A DNA stretch of 64,000 nucleotides, taken from positions 1 through 64,000 of the forward strand of contig JAFEDH010000020.1 in the NCBI GenBank assembly GCA_018241695.1, given 5' to 3'. This DNA is from Pseudomonadota bacterium (lineage in GTDB: Bacteria > Pseudomonadota > Gammaproteobacteria > Burkholderiales > Rhodocyclaceae). The notes beneath the pieces are model-generated. The model was given only the letters and a program-made list of their open reading frames with translations, searched no databases and was not told the origin of the DNA. Of the stretch, positions 44,386-55,271 are shown piece after piece; within the stretch, counting starts at the first letter, position 1; the number at the start of each line of letters is the position of its first letter. Made by a program: the position numbers and the translations under genes.

Positions 44386-44955
44386 ATGAACGCCACCCTG
44401 ATCAACACCGAAGTCCTGCCCTTCAAGGCCCAGGCCTATCACAACGGCAAATTCGTCGAAGTCACCGAAGCCGCCCTCAAGGGCAAGTGGTCGGTGGTCT
44501 TCTTCTACCCCGCCGACTTCACTTTCGTCTGCCCCACCGAACTGGGCGATCTGGCCGACAACCATGCCGAGTTCAAGAAGCTGGGCGTCGAGATCTACGC
44601 CGTGTCCACCGACACCCACTTCACCCACAAGGCCTGGCACGACACCTCCGACACCATCGGCAAGATCCAGTACGTGATGGTGGGCGACCCGACCGGTACC
44701 ATCTCGCGCAACTTCGGCGTGATGATCGAGTCCGAAGGGCTGGCCGAACGCGGCACCTTCGTCATCGACCCCCAGGGGCGGATCCAGATCATCGAGATCA
44801 ACGCCGGCGGGATCGGCCGTGACGCCAGCGAACTGCTGCGCAAGGTGAAGGCCGCCCAGTACGTGGCCGCGCACCCCGGCGAAGTCTGCCCCGCCAAGTG
44901 GAAGGAAGGCGAGAAGACCCTGGCGCCCTCCCTCGATCTGGTCGGAAAAATCTGA
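44386..44955 (+). CDS. ahpC: Alkyl hydroperoxide reductase subunit C (2-Cys peroxiredoxin)
   Basis: AhpC reduces hydrogen peroxide and organic peroxides. The 189-residue protein has the peroxidatic Cys in [20 protein letters not shown], Thr and Arg partners ([12 protein letters not shown] region) and the resolving Cys in [11 protein letters not shown]. The start has GAAGGAG upstream. ahpF follows after a 108-base gap, so AhpC is recharged by the neighbouring reductase. Confidence 0.98.
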
Positions 44956-45008
44956 GGCCGATTCCCCCCGTCCCTCCCAGGTTACCGCCCGGGAGCGGAT
45001 TGCAGCGC

Positions 45009-45035
45009 AAAGATGCGGTCACAAGCGGCATCTTT
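45009..45035 (+). repeat. Hairpin between ahpC and ahpF
   Basis: AAAGATGC (45009-45016) pairs with GCATCTTT (45028-45035) across an 11-base loop in the ahpC-ahpF gap. It has no following T-tract, so it is more likely an mRNA stabiliser or processing site that lets ahpC be expressed above ahpF than a full terminator. Confidence 0.45.
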
Positions 45036-45063
45036 CCAGTGCGATCCCTTTCAGGAGAACATC

Positions 45064-46656
45064 ATGCTCGACGACGCCATCAAAACCCAGCTCAAGGCCT
45101 ATCTCGAACGCCTGCAACAACCCATCGAACTCGTCGCCTGTCTGGACGACAGCACCCGGTCCGCCGAAATGCGCGAACTGCTGCACCAGATCGCGACACT
45201 CTCGCCTTTGGTGAGTGTGCGCGAGTCCGATGACGACGTCCGTCGTCCCTCCTTCGCCGTGGGCCGTCCCGGCGAGCCCGCCCGCATCCGCTTCGCCGGC
45301 CTGCCGATGGGCCATGAATTCACCTCCCTGGTGCTGGCCCTGCTCCAGACCGGCGGCCATCCACCCAAGGTGGAAGACGCGGTCATCGAACAGATCCGGA
45401 GCCTGCGCGGTGAATTCCGCTTCGAGGCCTACATCTCCCTCTCCTGCCACAACTGCCCGGACGTGGTGCAGGCGGTGAACCTTATGGCGGTGCTCAATCC
45501 CGGCATCGAAGCGGTGATGGTGGATGGCGCCCTGTTCCCGGAGGAAGTGGAATCGCGCCAGATCATGGCCGTGCCCGCCCTCTACCTCAACGGCGAGCCC
45601 TTCGGCCAGGGCCGCATGACCCTGGAAGAAATTCTCGCCAGGGTGGATAGCGGAGCTGCTGCCCGCGAAGCCGAAAAGATCAGCGCGAGGGAAGCCTTCG
45701 ACGTGCTCGTGGTGGGCCGCGGTCCCGCCGGCGCCGCGGCGGCCGTGTATGCGGCGCGCAAGGGCATCCGCACCGGCGTGCTGGCCGAGCGTTTCGGCGG
45801 CCAGGTGCTCGACACCCTGAGCATCGAGAACCTCATCTCGGTTCCGCATACCGAAGGCCCCCGGCTCGTGGCGGCACTGGAGCAGCATGTGCGCGAATAC
45901 GAAGTGGACATCATGAACCTGCAGCGCGCCGAAGCGCTCGAACCCATCGGTGCCGACGGCTACGCCACGGTGCGCACCGCCAGCGGCGCCACGCTCAAGG
46001 CCCGCAGCGTGGTGCTCGCCACCGGCGCGCGCTGGCGCGAGATGAACGTCCCCGGCGAAAAGGAATACAAGGCGCGCGGCGTCTGCTTCTGCCCCCACTG
46101 CGACGGCCCGCTGTTCAAGGGCAAGCGCGTGGCGGTGATCGGCGGCGGCAACTCCGGCGTGGAAGCCGCCATCGACCTGGCCGGCATCGTCAGCCACGTC
46201 ACCCTGCTCGAATTCGACGCCCAGCTGCGCGCCGATGCCGTGCTCCAGGCCAAGCTCGGCAGCCTTCCCAATGTCACCGTGATCACCCGGGCGCAGACCA
46301 CCGAAGTCACGGGCGACGGCGAGAAGGTCAATGGCATCGTCTACCAGGACCGGACCAGCGGCGCGGAAACGCGCATCGATCTGGAAGGCATCTTCGTCCA
46401 GATCGGCCTCTTGCCCAACACCGACTGGCTGCGTGGCACAATCGCCCTGTCCCCCCGCGGCGAGATCGATGTCGATGCCCGTGGCCAGACCTCGCTGCCC
46501 GGCATCTTCGCCGCCGGCGACGTCACCACCACGCCTTTCAAGCAGATCGTGATCGCCATGGGCGAGGGTGCCAAGGCCAGCCTCGCCGCCTTCGACCACC
46601 TGATCCGCAGCACGGCGCCCGCGGCAGCGCCTGCCGCATCCGCAGTGCCTGCCTGA
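45064..46656 (+). CDS. ahpF: Alkyl hydroperoxide reductase subunit F
   Basis: AhpF uses NADH and FAD to reduce AhpC. The 530-residue protein begins [20 protein letters not shown] and has the N-terminal double-thioredoxin-like domain with CHNC ([12 protein letters not shown]). It then has the FAD site [20 protein letters not shown], the redox pair CPHC in [13 protein letters not shown], the NAD site [17 protein letters not shown] and the closing [16 protein letters not shown]. The ATG at 45064 has AGGAG upstream. The length fits the family. Confidence 0.97.
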
Positions 46657-46683
46657 TCGCCGCACCAACCGAGGAGAAACCGC

Positions 46684-48132
46684 ATGTCAAAAAAACTGAC
46701 CACGGCCTTTGGCTGCCCCGTAGCCGACAACCAGAACACCATGACGGCGGGGCCGCGCGGCCCCGCCCTGCTGCAGGATGTCTGGCTGCTGGAAAAGCTG
46801 GCCCACTTCGACCGCGAGGTGATCCCCGAACGGCGCATGCACGCCAAGGGCAGCGGCGCCTATGGCACCTTCACGGTCACCCATGACATCACCCGCTACA
46901 CCCGGGCGAAAATCTTCAGCCAGATCGGCAAGAAGACCGAACTGTTCGCCCGTTTCACCACCGTGGCGGGCGAACGCGGCGCGGCCGATGCCGAACGCGA
47001 CATTCGCGGCTTCGCCGTAAAGTTCTATACCGAGGAAGGCAACTGGGATCTGGTGGGCAACAACACTCCCGTGTTCTTCCTGCGCGATCCGCTCAAGTTC
47101 CCCGATCTCAATCACGCGGTCAAGCGCGATCCCCGCACCAACCTGCGCTCCGCCCGCAACAACTGGGATTTCTGGACCTCCCTGCCCGAAGCGCTGCATC
47201 AGATCACCATCGTCATGAGCGAGCGCGGCATTCCCGCCAGCTATCGCGCCATGCACGGCTTTGGCAGCCACACCTTCAGCTTCATCAACGCGAATCAGGA
47301 ACGGCACTGGGTCAAGTTCCATTTCAGATCCCGCCAGCCGCTGCGGAACCTGAGCGACGCCGAGGCCGAAGCCCTGATCGGCCAGGACCGCGAAAGCCAC
47401 CAGCGCGACCTCTACGATGCGGTAGAGCGCGGCGACTATCCGCAATGGACCCTGTTGGTGCAGGTGATGCCGGAAAAGGATGCGTCGAAGGTGCCCTACA
47501 ACCCCTTCGATCTGACCAAGGTCTGGCCCCACAAGGATTACCCCCTGATCGAGGTGGGAGTCATGGAGCTAAACCGCAATCCGGAAAACTTCTTCGCCGA
47601 GGTCGAACAGTCCGCCTTCAATCCGGCCAGCGTGGTGCCCGGCATCGGTTTTTCTCCCGACAAGATGCTCCAGGCGCGCCTGTTCTCCTACGGCGATGCG
47701 CAGCGTTACCGGCTGGGCGTGAATCATCACCTGATCCCGGTCAATGCTCCGCGCTGCCCGGTGCACAGCTACCACCGGGATGGCGCCATGCGGGTGGATG
47801 GCAACCAGGGCGGCACCCTGGGCTACGAGCCCAACAGTTATGGCGAATGGCAGGAGCAGCCCGACTACCGCGAACCACCCCTGTCCCTCGAAGGCGCCGC
47901 CGATCACTGGAACCACCGGGAGGATGACGATTATTACTCCCAGCCCGGTGCCCTGTTCCGGCTGATGACGCCGGCCCAGCAGCAGGTGCTGTTCGAAAAT
48001 ACCGCCCGCTCCATCGGCCCCGCACCACGCGAAATCCAGCTGCGCCATATCCGCAACTGCCTCCGCGCCGACCCCGCCTACGGCAAGGGCATCGCCGACG
48101 CGCTGGGGATTCCGCACAGCGAGATCGGCTGA
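46684..48132 (+). CDS. katA: Monofunctional haem catalase (small-subunit type)
   Basis: The catalase disproportionates hydrogen peroxide. The 482-residue protein contains the distal His in [19 protein letters not shown], the Asn in [12 protein letters not shown], and the haem-binding Tyr in [20 protein letters not shown]. Absence of a large C-terminal domain places it in the small-subunit clade. GAGGAG lies just upstream of the start, 27 bases after ahpF, so ahpC-ahpF-katA is a peroxide-defence operon. A long hairpin follows the stop. Confidence 0.98.
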
Positions 48133-48145
48133 AGTGGAACGGCAT

Positions 48146-48197
48146 CCATGGCATCTGTCCCTCCCTCCGGAATGGACGGTCGGGACAGGTGCCATGG
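48146..48197 (+). repeat. Long hairpin downstream of katA
   Basis: CCATGGCATCTGTCCC (48146-48161) pairs with GGGACAGGTGCCATGG (48182-48197) in a 16-bp stem with one G-U wobble and a 20-base loop. It starts 13 bases after the katA stop. There is no T-tract, so it may be an mRNA 3' stabiliser or a Rho-related end rather than an intrinsic terminator. Confidence 0.65.
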
Positions 48198-48286
48198 CGG
48201 GAACCGGAGTGCAATGGTAGATTGGACTCCTTGCTACCCGGTCTCTCCCGGTGCACCTTCCGCCAGGGTGGTGCGTTCAGGCAGAC

Positions 48287-49090
48287 ATGAAGCACGAGCT
48301 TTTCAAACCTCTGGGCAACCATTATCCGCATGCTCTGGAACGGGCCTATGACCGTATCCTGGTCCGGATCGAGCAGCTCTGGGAAACGCCGGCGATCGAC
48401 GACTACTTCAGTGATCTGCTGATCGACAAGCGGGGCGGGCGCAAGGGTTTCCCCGCCGACGTGCTGGCCGACATCATCAAGCTGGCCCAGTATCGGGAGG
48501 TCGCCACCATCAAGCAGGCGGAACGGCGCGAGGACGCCGTCGCCGAACTGGCCCGGCGCAACATCGCCACCACGGGTGACAGCCTGTTCGAAACCATCGC
48601 GCATGGCGACAAGGAACTGCTCGACCTGCTGCTGCGCGCCGGTGTCAACATCCACATCAAGGACAAGCACGGCACGCCGCCCCTCATCCTCGCCCTGATG
48701 AAGGGCTACACCGTGGTGGCGCAGATGCTGCTCAAGGCGGGGGCGGAGGTGAACGACCGCGACAAGCGCGGCCTGACGCCACTCCTCCTGGCCTGCGGCA
48801 AGCCCGTTCAGGGCTACAAAGCCATTGCCGAAGCCCTGATCAAGAAGGGGGCCTTCATCAATATGCGCGACGCGCTGGGCAATACGCCCCTGCTGCTGGC
48901 GCTCTCCGGCGGCACGGTGGAGATCGCCGAACTGCTCATCGAGCGGGGCGCCGACGTCACGGCCACCACGCGGGATGGAGAAAGCGCCCTGACCCTGGCG
49001 CGCAAGGCCGGACACAACTCCCTGGCCAACCTGATCGCCGTCCGGCTGGAAGACCGGGCCAGGCCGAAGCCGGGGCCGTCAGAAAAATAG
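48287..49090 (+). CDS. Ankyrin-repeat protein with conserved N-terminal domain
   Basis: A 267-residue cytosolic protein without a signal peptide. The C-terminal part holds five or so ankyrin repeats (DSLFETIAHGDKELLDLLLR, HGTPPLILALMKGYTVVAQM, LTPLLLACGKPVQGYKAIAE, NTPLLLALSGGTVEIAELLI, ESALTLARKAGHNSLANLIA). The N-terminal ~100 residues (YDRILVRIEQLWETPAIDDY, LLIDKRGGRKGFPADVLADI) form a domain I recall from other betaproteobacterial proteins but cannot name. It follows katA. In Pseudomonas an ankyrin protein supports catalase KatB, but that one is exported, so the analogy is loose. Confidence 0.8.
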   Translation: MKHELFKPLGNHYPHALERAYDRILVRIEQLWETPAIDDYFSDLLIDKRGGRKGFPADVLADIIKLAQYREVATIKQAERREDAVAELARRNIATTGDSLFETIAHGDKELLDLLLRAGVNIHIKDKHGTPPLILALMKGYTVVAQMLLKAGAEVNDRDKRGLTPLLLACGKPVQGYKAIAEALIKKGAFINMRDALGNTPLLLALSGGTVEIAELLIERGADVTATTRDGESALTLARKAGHNSLANLIAVRLEDRARPKPGPSEK

Positions 49091-49127: not shown

Positions 49128-51752
49128 TCAGTGCAGTACCGACCAGTCACCGGTTTGCAGCTCTTTTATCTTCGCCCGGATATCCCGGCCGGACTTGACC
49201 GCGCCGCCCACCGGGCCGGCGAGATCGGGCCAGCCGATCAGGATCGCACCAACGAGCCGGCCTTCGCGCCAGACCAGCTTGCGGTAACGGTGCGCCACCT
49301 CGTCTTCCAGTACCAGGCTTTCATCACTTCCGTCCGCTTCGAAACGGCCCATCGAATACACATCCGCACCCACCACCTTGAGCATGGTCGACAACACCGG
49401 CTCGCGGTATTCACGGGCTTCGCCCAGGGCATTGCAGGCGGCAACCTCGGCCTGCTCGACCGCCACCGGCCACAACCCCGGGATACGGCCCGCATGTTCC
49501 GCCATGTCACCCACGGCAAATATCCCCTCGACCGAGGTGCGCATGGCCGAATCGACCACCACACCCCGCTTCACCACAAGGCCGGCAGCCCGCGCCAGCG
49601 TGATATTGGGCGTGATCCCGGCAGCCATGACCAGAACGTCGGCCTCAAGCGGTGCCGCATCCCGGAGATGCAGCAGCATTCTCCCGTCTTCGCGCACCAG
49701 GCGTAGCGACTCCCGGGCGGTGACAATCTCGATTCCAAGGCCGGCCAGATAGCCTTGCAGCATCCTTCCGCCACGTTCATCGAGCTGGCGATGCAATAGC
49801 CAGGCATTGCGTTCGACGACCGTGACCTTCAGCCCCAGCTTATGCAGCGCATAGGCGGCTTCAAGGCCCAGCAGACCGCCACCGGCCACCACGGCGTAAC
49901 GTGCCTGTTCCTTTTGCACAAAACTGCGCAGCCCCATGGCATCGTCTGCACTGCGCAGCACGAAGCAGCCGGGCAGCCCCCAGCCTTCCAGTGCCGGAAC
50001 GGTGCCGCTGCTGCCGCAGGCCAGGATCAGCCGGTCATATTCCAGCGTTTCCCCGTCTGCCAGACATACGCAATGGCCGGACGGATCGATGGATCGGGCG
50101 GCAGTATTGAGCAGCATCTCGATATTGCGCTCCCGGTACCACTCGTCCGCCATCAGATACAGGCCCTGCATCGCGGAACGGCCATACACCAGACGACTGA
50201 TACCCATGCGGTTGTAGAGTGCGTGGTTCTCGTCGGCGACGATGCGCAGCGTGCATTCGGGATGGCGCCGGCGCACATGATCCGCAGCCGTCACCCCGGC
50301 GATGCCATTGCCGATGATCAGGACATTGCGGATCGAGCGATCGAATCCCGATGCGGCGGCGGGTGGTGCGGTCGCCTTGTCGGGCGTCAGTACGATGCCG
50401 ATCCGGCCACGCTGGACACGGGCGCAGCAGGCCATGCGGGTATTGGGTGCGAACCCCAGGCGGGCCAGGGTGTTGAGTTCGTCCTCCTCCGCCGGACTCA
50501 ACCCCTCCGCACCCTCCCGGATCGCGACAGGGTCCGCGCCACAGGCGCCCATCCGGCAGCCCGCCTCGATCCGGCCGCCACAACCCTCGATCAGTTCCAG
50601 CAGGGTCTGCCCCTGCTGCGCGGGCACCTTCAGTTCGTCCGGCAGGATCACCAGCTCCGCCTGCTGTGCCGCAGTCGCCTGCTTCAGCGCACTGACGGCC
50701 CCGCTGCCCAGGCCGATCGATGAATTCGCGGTCTTGCCCACCGCCTTGAGGATGAAGGCATCCTCGACCCGGAACCCGCGCCGGATCCAGATCACGCTCA
50801 GCACCAGGATGCCCGCACGCACCACCTGCACGGCGACATTTGCATTCCAGCCACCGGTCAGGCCGGCGAGGCCGCCCAGCCACGTGGAGGAGACACCCCA
50901 GTAATAGATGTTGAAGGCCAGTGCGCCAAACACCACCGTAAGCCGGTTTTTAGGGACACGGGCGAAGGCATCCAGAAACTGGAAAATGCCGATGCTCAAA
51001 AGGCAGCACACGGCGAAGCGGGTGTACAGCGTCAGCCAGTCCGCCCCTGCGGGGATGGAAAAAAATGCCACCAGAAAACCGGGCAGCAGGCTGTTGAACA
51101 GACGGCGGCGGCCCACGTAGTGGCGGTCTTCGTCATACTGGTCGGCCAGATAGGCCACGGACGGATTGAAGTCGAAACAGTTGCGGGTGCAGCTGACACA
51201 GGGCTGGCAGTGGTTGTTCGCAACCGGCAGCGCCGCGGTCTGCCCGTAGATGCGCTGCACCGGCAGCAGGGGACAGATGCTGCTGCACCAGCCGCTTTTC
51301 CCCTTGAAAACCAGGCCGCCGGCAAAAGCCCCCAGCAAGCCGAACAGAATCATCGCGGCGGTCGCCGGACCACTGCCGTTGAACAACCATTTGCGCGAGG
51401 ACACGAAGATGAAGAACAGCGCGATGCCGACGGTATAGCTGTATTCACGAATCCGTGTTGTATGCGTCAGCCCGCGGGTGAAGCCGAAACGGCGGGGCAG
51501 CTGGTTGAGCGCAGCCATCGGACAGATGTTTCTCCAGATGCCCGGTGCCAGCAGGAAGAGCAGGGGCAGGGCAGGCACCATCACCTGCCAGAACAGCACC
51601 AGGCCGATGGCGGGAGCGACCACGAGCAGAATCACCGTCGCCAGCGCAACCAGCACGGACATCACCCGCAGGGCATCCCATACCCGCTGCGGGAACAGTG
51701 GTGGCAACTGCAGATAGTTGGCGAAAAGCGGTGGCGCCGTATTGCCCGGCAT
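49128..51752 (-). CDS. Membrane 4Fe-4S / 2Fe-2S / FAD fusion oxidoreductase
   Basis: An 874-residue protein with three fused modules. The N-terminal third has about eight membrane helices with NapH/NosR-like CP motifs (WRNICPMAALNQ, GWCSSICPLLPVQ) and a 4Fe-4S motif HCQPCVSCTRNC near residue 180. The middle (about 390-445) is a ferredoxin-like domain with GCRMGACGADPVAI, where the usual third Cys is Asp, and ACCARV. The C-terminal part is a NirB-like pyridine nucleotide-disulfide reductase: FAD motif IIGNGIAGVTAADHVRRRH at about residue 475, NAD motif VVAGGGLLGLEAAYAL at about 620 and GIFAVGDMAEHAG. It probably moves electrons between a quinone or periplasmic donor and NAD. It follows a cNMP-binding gene by 14 bases. 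Confidence 0.82.
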   Translation of the reverse strand: MPGNTAPPLFANYLQLPPLFPQRVWDALRVMSVLVALATVILLVVAPAIGLVLFWQVMVPALPLLFLLAPGIWRNICPMAALNQLPRRFGFTRGLTHTTRIREYSYTVGIALFFIFVSSRKWLFNGSGPATAAMILFGLLGAFAGGLVFKGKSGWCSSICPLLPVQRIYGQTAALPVANNHCQPCVSCTRNCFDFNPSVAYLADQYDEDRHYVGRRRLFNSLLPGFLVAFFSIPAGADWLTLYTRFAVCCLLSIGIFQFLDAFARVPKNRLTVVFGALAFNIYYWGVSSTWLGGLAGLTGGWNANVAVQVVRAGILVLSVIWIRRGFRVEDAFILKAVGKTANSSIGLGSGAVSALKQATAAQQAELVILPDELKVPAQQGQTLLELIEGCGGRIEAGCRMGACGADPVAIREGAEGLSPAEEDELNTLARLGFAPNTRMACCARVQRGRIGIVLTPDKATAPPAAASGFDRSIRNVLIIGNGIAGVTAADHVRRRHPECTLRIVADENHALYNRMGISRLVYGRSAMQGLYLMADEWYRERNIEMLLNTAARSIDPSGHCVCLADGETLEYDRLILACGSSGTVPALEGWGLPGCFVLRSADDAMGLRSFVQKEQARYAVVAGGGLLGLEAAYALHKLGLKVTVVERNAWLLHRQLDERGGRMLQGYLAGLGIEIVTARESLRLVREDGRMLLHLRDAAPLEADVLVMAAGITPNITLARAAGLVVKRGVVVDSAMRTSVEGIFAVGDMAEHAGRIPGLWPVAVEQAEVAACNALGEAREYREPVLSTMLKVVGADVYSMGRFEADGSDESLVLEDEVAHRYRKLVWREGRLVGAILIGWPDLAGPVGGAVKSGRDIRAKIKELQTGDWSVLH

Positions 51753-51766
51753 GATTCATCCGTATT

Positions 51767-52249
51767 TCAGCGGCGTGTGCGCAGCATGAGCTCGGTCAGC
51801 TCGCGCAGGCGTAGCGAGAGAATCCGGCCCAGATCGAAAAGCGCCATGCGCGCCAGCTCCGGATATCGCGCCGAAAGCAGATCGAAAGCCTCCAGCGAGA
51901 TGATGAACAGTTCGCCATCGCTGTGGGCGCGCACACTGGCCGAACGCGCCAGTCCATCGAGAAACGCCTGCTCGCCGAAAACCGAAAGCGGCTCGATGTC
52001 ATAGATGTGCCTGTCACCATCCTGGCCGCTCGCAAACACCTCCAGCCGGCCGCTGGCAACGATGTAAAAGGCCCGGCTGTGTTCACCCTGGCGCAGCAGC
52101 AACTCACCCGCCGCAAATTTCCGGCGCTGCGCCACCGCCAGCAGGCGCGTCCAGTCCTCCTCGGGAAGATTGCCCAGAAAAATCGCGGCCGGCGCCGGGT
52201 CCGAATCGGCACCGGCGCGTTCGTAATCGAAAAACGAAGAAAAATCCAT
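51767..52249 (-). CDS. Cyclic-nucleotide-binding-domain protein without HTH
   Basis: A 160-residue Crp/cNMP-binding-fold protein. The core reads KFAAGELLLRQGEHSRAFYI, VASGRLEVFASGQ, and LSVFGEQAFLDGLARSASVR, where the FGE-x(n)-R pattern matches a phosphate-binding cassette. The C-terminus has a helix but no DNA-binding helix-turn-helix, so it is a sensor or subunit, not a transcription factor. The ATG at 52249 was chosen over a longer frame with no homology; the ribosome site is modest. It lies 14 bases upstream of the fusion oxidoreductase in the same direction and may regulate or dock on it. Confidence 0.8.
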   Translation of the reverse strand: MDFSSFFDYERAGADSDPAPAAIFLGNLPEEDWTRLLAVAQRRKFAAGELLLRQGEHSRAFYIVASGRLEVFASGQDGDRHIYDIEPLSVFGEQAFLDGLARSASVRAHSDGELFIISLEAFDLLSARYPELARMALFDLGRILSLRLRELTELMLRTRR

Positions 52250-52361
52250 GCACGCTTCCCGTTCCGTGCGGACAAGCGATCCGCAAGCCTGCACCTTCCT
52301 TCGGTTAGCACAAGATCGGCAGACTGCAAGGAATCCCCCGGCGACTGGCACAATACCGGCC

Positions 52362-55271
52362 ATGACACCGGAAACCTTCATCGCCCGCTGGCGCGGCAAC
52401 ACCCTTACCGAACGCGCCGGCGCGCAGCCGCATTTCGACGATCTGTGCGACCTGCTCGGCGTGGACAAACCCCGCGATCCGGAAAACTACTGCTTCGAGC
52501 GCGGCGCAAGAAAGGCCGGCGGCGGCGAGGGGGCGCGGCAGGGCTGGGCCGATGTCTGGAAGCGCGGCCACTTCGGCTGGGAGAACAAGAAACCCGGCCG
52601 CAATCTCGATGCCGCCCTCAAGCAGCTCACCGACTACGCCCTGCAACTCGACAACCCGCCGCTGCTCGTCGTCTGCGACCGCGAGCGCATCGTCATCCAT
52701 ACCGCCTTCACCGGCTACCCCGACGAACCCCGTGAAATCCGCATCGGGCAACTGATCGAGCCGCACGCCCGGCAAACACTCCGCTGGGTATTCACCGATC
52801 CTGAAAAGCTGCGCCCGGAAAAATCCACCGCCGCCATCACCGCGCAGGCCGCCGGCCAGTTCGCCCAGCTTGCCGCCGCCCTGCGCGGGCGCGGCGAGGG
52901 CGGCGAGAAAGTCGCCCACTTTCTCGTCCAGTGCCTTTTCTGCATGTTTGCCGAAGACGAAAACCTGCTCCCCTCCGGCATCTTCACCGATCTGCTGCAG
53001 CACGCCGGCAGCGATGCCGGCAAGGCCGCCCGCCGCATCGAAAAACTTTTCCATGCCATGCGCCAGCGCGGCGGCGAATATGGCGACCACGACATCGCCT
53101 GGTTCAACGGCGGCCTTTTCAAAACCATCGACCTTCCACCGCTGATCACGACGGACATCGCCATCCTGCACCGCGCCGCCGCCGACATGGACTGGCGCGC
53201 CATCGACCCCACCATCTTCGGCACGCTCTTTGAACGCGGCCTCGACCCCGCCGCCCGCGCCCCGCTCGGCGCCCACTACACCGACACCGGCACCATCCAG
53301 AAGCTGATCGACCCGCTGGTGCGCGAACCGCTGGCCAGCGAATGGGCCTCCACCCGCCGGCAAATCGCCGCACTGGCGCCCGGCTTCGGCATGGTCAGGA
53401 CGCGCAAAAAAGCGCAGTTCCGGCCCAACGAAGCCCGGCAGCGCGGACAGGAACTGCTGCAGGGTTTTCTCAACCGCCTCAACCACTACCGCGTGCTCGA
53501 CCCCGCCTGCGGCAGTGGCAACTTTCTCTATCTCGCCCTCAAGGCCCTGCGTGACATCGAAAAGCGCGCCCACATCGACGCCCTCGAACTCGGCCTGCAA
53601 CCCGAACTCGTCATGCAGACCGGCCCGCACAACATCCTCGGGCTGGAGATCAACGAATTCGCCGCCGAACTCGCCCGCGTCACCGTCTGGATCGGCGACA
53701 TCCAGTGGTGCCGGCAGAACGGCTACCCGCACGCCCTCAACCCCATTTTGAAACCGCTCGACGGCATCGAACACCGCGACGCCCTGCTCAACGCCGATGG
53801 CAGCGAAGCGCAATGGCCTGCCGCCGACGTCATCGTCGGCAACCCGCCTTTCCTCGGTGACAAGGTCATGCGCGGCGAACTCGGCTCCGAATACGTCGAA
53901 ACCCTGCGTAAAACCTACGACGGCCACGTTCCCGGTGGTGCCGACCTCGTCACCTACTGGTTCGAAAAAGCCCGCGCCCGGATCGCCGCCGGAAAACTGC
54001 AGGCCGCCGGCCTCGTCGCCACCAACTCCATCCGCGGCGGCGCCAACCGCAAGGTGCTGGAGCGCATTGTCGACACGACGCGCATTTTCGAGGCCTGGAG
54101 CGACGAGGAATGGGTCAATGAAGGCGCCGCCGTGCGCGTGTCGCTGGTTGGTTTTGGCCCGTTTTTCGGGGTCGACCGCAGCAGTCGGCTGGATGGGCTT
54201 GAAGTAAATTCGATTCACGCCGATTTGACGGCAGCCGTCGGTGTCAACCTGACCAAGGCCAAGCCGCTGCCGGAAAATACCAGCACCGCCTACCTCGGCA
54301 TCCAGAAAACCGGCCCCTTCGATCTTCCCGGTGAACTGGGCCGAAGCTGGCTCAGCCAACCCAACCCGAACGGTCGCCCGAACAGCGAAATCGTCAAACC
54401 GTGGTTCAACGGTCTCGACATCACGCGCCGCCAGCGCGACATGTGGATCGTCGATTTCGGTACCGACATGCCGGAAACAGAAGCTAGTCTTTACGAGTTG
54501 CCGTTTGCCTACGCTAGGGAGCACGTGCAGCCAACAAGGGTTGGCAAGCGCGAAGCGCGAACCAACGAAATGTGGTGGCTTTTCCAGTGGTCGCGGCCAT
54601 TGATGCGCCGGGCCATCGCCAAGCTGCCGCGCTTCATCGTCACACCCGAGGTTGCCAAGCACCGGGTATTTGCTTTCATGCAACCGCCTACGGTCGCCGA
54701 CAAGAACCTTACGGTCATCGCCCGTTCCGACGACACCACCTTCGGCATCCTGCATTCCCGCTTCCATGAACTCTGGTCGCTGCGCCTCTGCACCTACCTC
54801 GGCGTTGGCAACGATCCGCGCTACACCCCGACCACCACCTTCGAAACCTTCCCCTTCCCCGCCGGCCTGACGCCGCGCGACACCGCCGCCGGCGCGCCGT
54901 CCGGCCCGCTCGCCGCAGCCATCGCGGCCGCCGCCCACCGTCTCGACGAACTGCGCGAAGCCTGGCTCAACCCACCGGAATGGGTCGACTGGATCATCAC
55001 CCCGGAAGAGGAAAAGGCCGGCTTCCCGCAACGCCCGGTGGCCAAACCCGGCCATGAGGCCGACCTCAGGAAGCGCACCCTGACCAATCTCTACAACGCG
55101 AAGCAGGCGGGGCAAGCGGCCTGGCTCGACATGGCCCACAAGGCGCTCGACCGGGCCGTGGCCGCCGCCTACGGCTGGGACGACTACACGCCAGAAATGC
55201 CCGACGAGGAAATCCTCCGCCGCCTGCTGGCGCTCAATCTTGCCCGCGCCGCCGGGGCCAAGACGCGCTGA
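52362..55271 (+). CDS. MmeI-like single-protein restriction-modification enzyme (type IIL)
   Basis: A 969-residue protein combining nuclease, N6-adenine methyltransferase and target recognition. The N-terminal nuclease motif is D64-x9-E74-N-K76 (DVWKRGHFGWENK), the exact D-x9-ExK spacing I recall for MmeI. A helical spacer follows. Methyltransferase motif I is LDPACGSGNF (from about residue 378) and motif IV is NPPF at 494. The region after about residue 600 is the probable target-recognition domain. It stands alone between housekeeping genes with no accessory methylase, as expected for type IIL. Codon use is GC-rich except in the recognition domain. Confidence 0.88.
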   Translation: MTPETFIARWRGNTLTERAGAQPHFDDLCDLLGVDKPRDPENYCFERGARKAGGGEGARQGWADVWKRGHFGWENKKPGRNLDAALKQLTDYALQLDNPPLLVVCDRERIVIHTAFTGYPDEPREIRIGQLIEPHARQTLRWVFTDPEKLRPEKSTAAITAQAAGQFAQLAAALRGRGEGGEKVAHFLVQCLFCMFAEDENLLPSGIFTDLLQHAGSDAGKAARRIEKLFHAMRQRGGEYGDHDIAWFNGGLFKTIDLPPLITTDIAILHRAAADMDWRAIDPTIFGTLFERGLDPAARAPLGAHYTDTGTIQKLIDPLVREPLASEWASTRRQIAALAPGFGMVRTRKKAQFRPNEARQRGQELLQGFLNRLNHYRVLDPACGSGNFLYLALKALRDIEKRAHIDALELGLQPELVMQTGPHNILGLEINEFAAELARVTVWIGDIQWCRQNGYPHALNPILKPLDGIEHRDALLNADGSEAQWPAADVIVGNPPFLGDKVMRGELGSEYVETLRKTYDGHVPGGADLVTYWFEKARARIAAGKLQAAGLVATNSIRGGANRKVLERIVDTTRIFEAWSDEEWVNEGAAVRVSLVGFGPFFGVDRSSRLDGLEVNSIHADLTAAVGVNLTKAKPLPENTSTAYLGIQKTGPFDLPGELGRSWLSQPNPNGRPNSEIVKPWFNGLDITRRQRDMWIVDFGTDMPETEASLYELPFAYAREHVQPTRVGKREARTNEMWWLFQWSRPLMRRAIAKLPRFIVTPEVAKHRVFAFMQPPTVADKNLTVIARSDDTTFGILHSRFHELWSLRLCTYLGVGNDPRYTPTTTFETFPFPAGLTPRDTAAGAPSGPLAAAIAAAAHRLDELREAWLNPPEWVDWIITPEEEKAGFPQRPVAKPGHEADLRKRTLTNLYNAKQAGQAAWLDMAHKALDRAVAAAYGWDDYTPEMPDEEILRRLLALNLARAAGAKTR

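Follow-up and report, generated by a model that had tools for sequence, protein, structure and literature searches.

What does a membrane-bound oxidoreductase share with a nucleotide-binding protein encoded directly upstream of it? The question is raised by two adjacent genes in the window, the 64,000-nucleotide stretch of Rhodocyclaceae DNA analysed here. One encodes a large redox protein (the core), and the other a small cyclic-nucleotide-binding (CNB) protein. An earlier sequence-only reading had taken the core for a triple fusion of a NapH/NosR-like membrane ferredoxin, a 2Fe-2S-like domain and a NirB-like reductase, and had suggested an electron-transfer route between membrane and NAD, switched by a nucleotide signal on the protein itself. 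The evidence assembled here points, with a probability of roughly 0.6, to a membrane-anchored NADH oxidoreductase in which a signal, sensed on the enzyme itself, gates the flow of electrons.

Domain architecture of the core

From its N to its C terminus the core consists of a membrane Fe-S domain, a [2Fe-2S]-type domain and an FAD/NAD reductase (Table 1). The open reading frame and the Pfam matches bear out the three-part architecture that had been proposed; its placement in the NapH/NosR family does not stand, as the motifs that define this family are not all present. The 14-bp gap between the genes is compatible with a single transcript, and neither a sigma-70-like promoter nor a minus-strand terminator-like site was seen in the region of the pair.

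Table 1. Positions of the gene pair and of the parts of the core within the window
Feature	Position	Strand	Remarks
Core gene	49128-51752	minus	ORF, 874 aa, no internal stops
CNB protein gene	51767-52249	minus	ORF, 160 aa
Intergenic gap, CNB gene/core	51753-51766	minus	14 bp; CNB gene upstream of core
Membrane domain, residues 10-345	50718-51725	minus	8 predicted TM helices, N terminus in
C77-P	51522-51524	minus	upstream of the other membrane-domain Cys motifs
C156-x3-C160-P and C182-x2-C185-x2-C188-x3-C192	51177-51287	minus	invariant in 45/45 homologues
Fer2 domain, residues 366-447	50412-50657	minus	PF00111 at residues 371-447, 26.1 bits, cut-off 21
FAD/NAD reductase, residues 476-841	49230-50327	minus	Pyr_redox_2 and Rubredoxin_C; fold of TodA/BphA4/putidaredoxin reductase

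In the membrane domain Cys77, 156, 160, 182, 185, 188 and 192 are identical in all 45 aligned homologues, and the same seven are kept in a second, rhizobial and cyanobacterial branch. An AlphaFold model (mean pLDDT 87.8) contains eight long membrane helices. Lys and Arg are almost absent from the loops on the side opposite the Fe-S motifs, and by this charge distribution and the model these motifs, together with the N terminus, are all predicted to lie on the cytoplasmic side. The proposed link between membrane and NAD thus holds insofar as the reductase is joined to a membrane Fe-S module; electron transfer across the membrane is unsupported, because none of the Fe-S motifs is predicted to lie anywhere but at the cytoplasm. 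Similarity to described membrane modules is weak. NapH models score 21 bits, far below their cut-offs of 213 and 234, and the Fer4_5 match falls slightly below its cut-off. No convincing match was obtained when solved structures were searched by sequence and fold using only the membrane domain, which does not imply a new fold.

The middle domain carries the cluster set C399-x4-C404-x2-D407 ... C442, identical in 45/45 homologues. It has the Fer2 domain of plant/vertebrate-type [2Fe-2S] ferredoxins and not their four cysteine ligands, the third position being Asp407 in every homologue, where Ferredoxin-4, an ordinary ferredoxin, has a Cys. An aspartate in place of the third ligand cysteine is known from SdhB of E. 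coli. The reductase part comprises Pyr_redox_2 (residues 476-768, 185 bits) and Rubredoxin_C (residues 788-840, 53 bits) in the Pfam scan, and superposes on TodA (3ef6) with a Z score of 46.1 and an rmsd of 2.5 over 391 aligned residues; its nearest relatives in fold are the ferredoxin reductases of dioxygenases. At the end of its NAD beta strand lies Glu647, present in 35 of the 45 homologues. A known rule links glutamate at this place with the use of NADH, and the residue suggests that the core prefers NADH to NADPH.

Conservation of the pair and repeated change of its input module

Full-length cores were found in 4 of 61 genomes (that of the window and 60 relatives), at identities of 100, 59, 51 and 40%, with the CNB protein directly upstream in all four. 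Strong matches to the N-terminal half of the core are present in 3 of the 369 genomes sampled in the class and 4 of the 399 sampled in the order; close to the window the core is therefore scarce and unevenly distributed. Relatives numbered 154 in a scan of species genomes, and the best 80 of them were retained. These belong to Beta-, Gamma- and Alphaproteobacteria, Chloroflexota and many Actinomycetota. The few labelled Akkermansia come from metagenome bins, and their assignment may be wrong; L045 and L051, which carry this label, branch among proteobacterial or mixed sequences and are probably mis-binned contigs. In genome G777 the core is broken into several frames (L145:4511-6882), which may reflect a frameshift, a pseudogene or a sequencing error. 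Mycobacterium sp. AZCC_0083 has two cores (L104 and L107), the second lacking both FHA and CNB. A shortened core without the flavin domain has a DUF3095 protein nearby (L125:2187-3368) and still a CNB protein upstream.

In the window, a peroxide-defence cluster (ahpC, an AhpF-like reductase, catalase and an ankyrin-repeat gene; 44386-49090, plus strand) is convergent with the core, and an MmeI-like restriction-modification protein (52359-55271) is encoded divergently from the CNB gene. Both were rejected as partners of the pair because they are not common to other core loci. At the proteobacterial loci no single conserved downstream gene was found.

Input modules were counted at 82 loci, namely the best 80 of the 154 relatives, the window and the G020 locus. 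A CNB protein alone accompanies 40 cores, a core-fused FHA domain alone 29, both 7 and neither 6, counts that are not independent because Nocardia and Mycobacterium are heavily represented. In total, CNB stands beside the core at 47 of the 82 loci, so that the pair does recur well beyond this strain, and FHA is on the core at 36. In most loci the CNB gene overlaps the core or is separated from it by no more than tens of bases. A CNB protein is present with nearly all cores that have no FHA domain. True exceptions are L055 and L107, which have room for an input module and contain none; conversely, G041 has an orphan CNB gene. Among the other loci without a module, L053, L062 and L094 are cut by the upstream contig edge, and at L108 a separate FHA gene directly precedes the core. 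L064 starts at a contig edge, beyond which an FHA domain may lie. The orphan (L143:6936-7409, no core nearby) is one of the four closest CNB relatives in the relatives' genomes; the other three adjoin a core.

FHA domains are phosphothreonine readers. In many Actinomycetota a fused FHA domain takes the place of the CNB protein, which suggests that the common rule is a signal-reading module plus a redox core, and not cyclic nucleotides alone. The FHA domain is N-terminal in most cores and C-terminal in one from Chloroflexota (L057). On the tree, fused FHA requires four changes and CNB three, and the inputs have therefore changed on more than one occasion.

The CNB protein itself is a single PF00027 domain (71.3 bits, cut-off 27.5) in 160 residues. 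Pfam and model scans of it detected no DNA-binding domain, confirming the earlier description of a cNMP-binding protein that lacks one and precedes the core. It also has no C-terminal HTH, the mark of CRP/FNR transcription regulators, and cannot be assigned to that class. The glutamate and the phosphate-binding arginine of the cassette (Arg209 in PKA) form the canonical CNB motif (PMC2246266). Both are kept in the cassette of the window protein, FGEQAFLDGLARSASV, and across the core loci 42 of the 47 CNB proteins retain the Glu and 38 the Arg. Sequence and model together suggest that the protein would be competent to bind a cyclic nucleotide.

These residues bear on the strongest of the alternatives, in which the core is an ordinary membrane reductase with a metabolic acceptor such as ferric iron, an oxygenase or quinone, and the CNB protein is structural and needs no nucleotide. 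It would accommodate CNB proteins that have lost Glu or Arg (L110, L115 and the G020 locus), the relative of the membrane domain in an iron-uptake-like cluster, and the gene downstream of the core in Andreprevotia that by sequence appearance encodes a Rieske-type oxygenase. Loss of the arginine is, however, not scattered. Of the 37 CNB proteins that have no FHA partner 35 retain the residue, whereas 6 of the 9 that have one lack it, an association with a Fisher p of 0.0002 that is post hoc and ignores kinship; on the tree the independent pairs are too few for a test, and none runs in the opposite direction. A merely structural role also explains poorly why both FHA and CNB have been used repeatedly. 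We consider this alternative unlikely.

The other genes around the cores fit a signalling role. A Ser/Thr kinase family is present at 23 loci and a family of FHA genes at 30; class III cyclases were found by Pfam at L052, L063, L067 and L098, and L071 contains a protein that clusters with them by sequence. Of the three class III cyclases encoded in the window genome, one carries CHASE2 and another a hemerythrin domain (L119:1354-2661); the latter might supply cyclic nucleotide in a manner linked to oxygen. A small DUF6529 membrane protein with conserved histidines is encoded near some actinobacterial cores. It is present at L057 (9156-10856), where it is fused to a Ser/Thr kinase, and also at L068, L077, L100, L103 and L106. 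It is possibly a haem protein and redox partner of the core, and offers one lead for the acceptor.

The same neighbourhoods could be read with information flowing in reverse: the redox chain would sense NADH or the quinone pool, and the CNB or FHA module would be its output, or would integrate the redox state with another signal, towards kinases or further partners. Kinase and FHA genes do cluster with the core in Actinomycetota, and the proteobacterial loci lack a conserved substrate enzyme. Yet the CNB protein carries no output domain, its ligand-binding residues are mostly retained, and the flavin domain has the standard fold of an NADH:ferredoxin reductase. Reverse flow is likewise unlikely and ranks second among the alternatives.

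Relatives of the core and comparison with known systems

A search of plasmids with the N-terminal part of the core matched only distant cyanobacterial fusions (Synechocystis PCC 6714, Leptolyngbya BL0902 and Kovacikia). A further search brought in Rhizobium, Agrobacterium and Leptolyngbya boryana. Profile comparison of the membrane domain with this second branch gave homology probabilities of 99.3-99.4% over 266-269 columns. In Synechocystis the membrane domain carries a C-terminal CNB domain, and Fer2 and flavin domains are absent from the chain. In Rhizobium etli it is fused to FHA, and the adjoining gene encodes a flavin/Fer2 reductase; Agrobacterium has a reductase annotated likewise. In L. 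boryana the membrane-domain gene is flanked by a kinase gene and by a gene for a protein combining FHA, an FNR-type flavin/NAD reductase and Fer2; an EF-hand annotated in one L. boryana protein had no match in the Pfam scan. The reductase of the core and the different flavin/Fer2 class of this branch are thus two unrelated reductases wired alike to the membrane domain.

At two of the plasmid loci (L128 and L131, from Rhizobium and Agrobacterium), the gene of the FHA-fused membrane protein is oriented divergently from genes for a MauG-type di-haem peroxidase, an ATP-binding, kinase-like protein and a response regulator. The relative in the iron-uptake-like cluster is a 375-residue protein of genome G033 (L127:3734-4861), whose neighbours are EfeO-, EfeB- and FTR1-like as judged by appearance.

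None of the known systems compared here matches the pair as a whole. With the NapH/NosR/RdhC module the core shares membrane helices, CP motifs and a CX2CX2CX3C ferredoxin motif. That module is defined by two complete CX3CP motifs (PMC5928378), whereas the core has one, its first reading W73-x3-C77-P. NapH and NosR have two 4Fe-4S ferredoxin motifs and the core one; the core also differs from the module in its eight helices, its scores far under the cut-offs and its fusion to Fer2 and an NADH reductase. The covalent FMN-binding domain of NosR and RdhC gave no match in a Pfam scan of the core. The FAD/NAD/C-terminal fold of TodA, BphA4 and putidaredoxin reductase, which are NADH:[2Fe-2S] ferredoxin reductases, is found in the core, which differs from them in its membrane anchor and in carrying the [2Fe-2S] domain in the same chain. 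A further comparison is with the 'Bact_Pyrredox' family, in which tandem CNB domains and a pyridine nucleotide-disulphide oxidoreductase form one chain (Kannan et al. 2007; PMC2246266). The window pair likewise couples CNB to such an oxidoreductase, but has a single CNB domain in a separate gene and a membrane Fe-S core. The full-text literature searched contained no description of the gene pair, the fusion or a pathway with this pair, in agreement with the earlier impression; subscription papers were mostly outside it, so this absence is weak.

The likeness to NirB and NosR raises the further alternative that the core is a nitrite or nitric-oxide enzyme, for which a weak NapH-type match and a partial match to the NirB model could be cited. 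The N-terminal FAD/NAD part is indeed common to the core and NirB, the large subunit of assimilatory nitrite reductase, and to this extent the label 'NirB-like' was apt. The match covers positions 2-371 of the 794 in the model (298 bits, cut-off 578) and, because it ends there, the sirohaem/4Fe-4S, nitrite-reducing half is absent. With the NosR-type FMN domain missing as well, both functions were rejected for the core. There are no obvious denitrification genes among the neighbours, nothing was found that links the core to nitrosative stress, and this alternative is very improbable. Chance adjacency of unrelated CNB and core genes has next to nothing in its favour: the other window neighbours, for restriction and peroxide defence, are indeed unrelated to the pair, but the constant order and spacing across many genera and several phyla refute it.

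Proposed signal-gated electron transfer and its significance

A membrane NADH oxidoreductase gated on the protein therefore remains the preferred reading. NADH would reduce the FAD of the core, and FAD would pass single electrons to the [2Fe-2S] domain of the same chain, with three Cys and one Asp as ligands. From there electrons would move to the [4Fe-4S] motif at the cytoplasmic face of the eight-helix membrane domain, and finally to an acceptor in the membrane, for which the quinone pool and a membrane redox partner are candidates. This order, NADH to FAD to [2Fe-2S] to [4Fe-4S], is inferred from sequence and model. The stand-alone CNB protein would bind a cyclic nucleotide and act directly on the core as its regulatory subunit, and its role would be filled in other lineages by an FHA domain, fused to the core or encoded nearby and often accompanied by an adjacent Ser/Thr kinase gene. 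Direct action gains plausibility from cyanobacteria, where CNB and a homologue of the membrane domain share one chain. Against this reading speak the orphan CNB gene of G041, the absence of a module at L055 and L107, the loss of Glu or Arg from some CNB proteins and the lack of a single downstream gene common to the proteobacterial loci; moreover, neighbouring genes need not encode proteins that touch.

The genomic evidence thus suggests direct, signal-switched electron transfer, with the core and its CNB or FHA module forming an undescribed enzyme family. A wider class, in which the membrane Fe-S domain works with either of the two unrelated NAD(P)H reductases and CNB or FHA/kinase inputs are interchangeable means of post-translational control, is a tentative extension, possible rather than probable.

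In eukaryotic NADPH oxidases a signal-binding domain switches membrane electron transfer from a nicotinamide nucleotide. The comparison is an analogy without a claim of homology, and the core has Fe-S motifs, not haem. Most descriptions of how bacteria control respiratory-type electron flow concern gene expression. If the proposed mechanism is true, bacteria would also adjust electron transfer in the membrane rapidly, through signals, and a target would be at hand for some of the numerous CNB and FHA proteins without a DNA-binding domain. The variety of the family across phyla makes it testable in type strains. The wider class, if real, would be a bacterial counterpart of the signal-gated oxidases.
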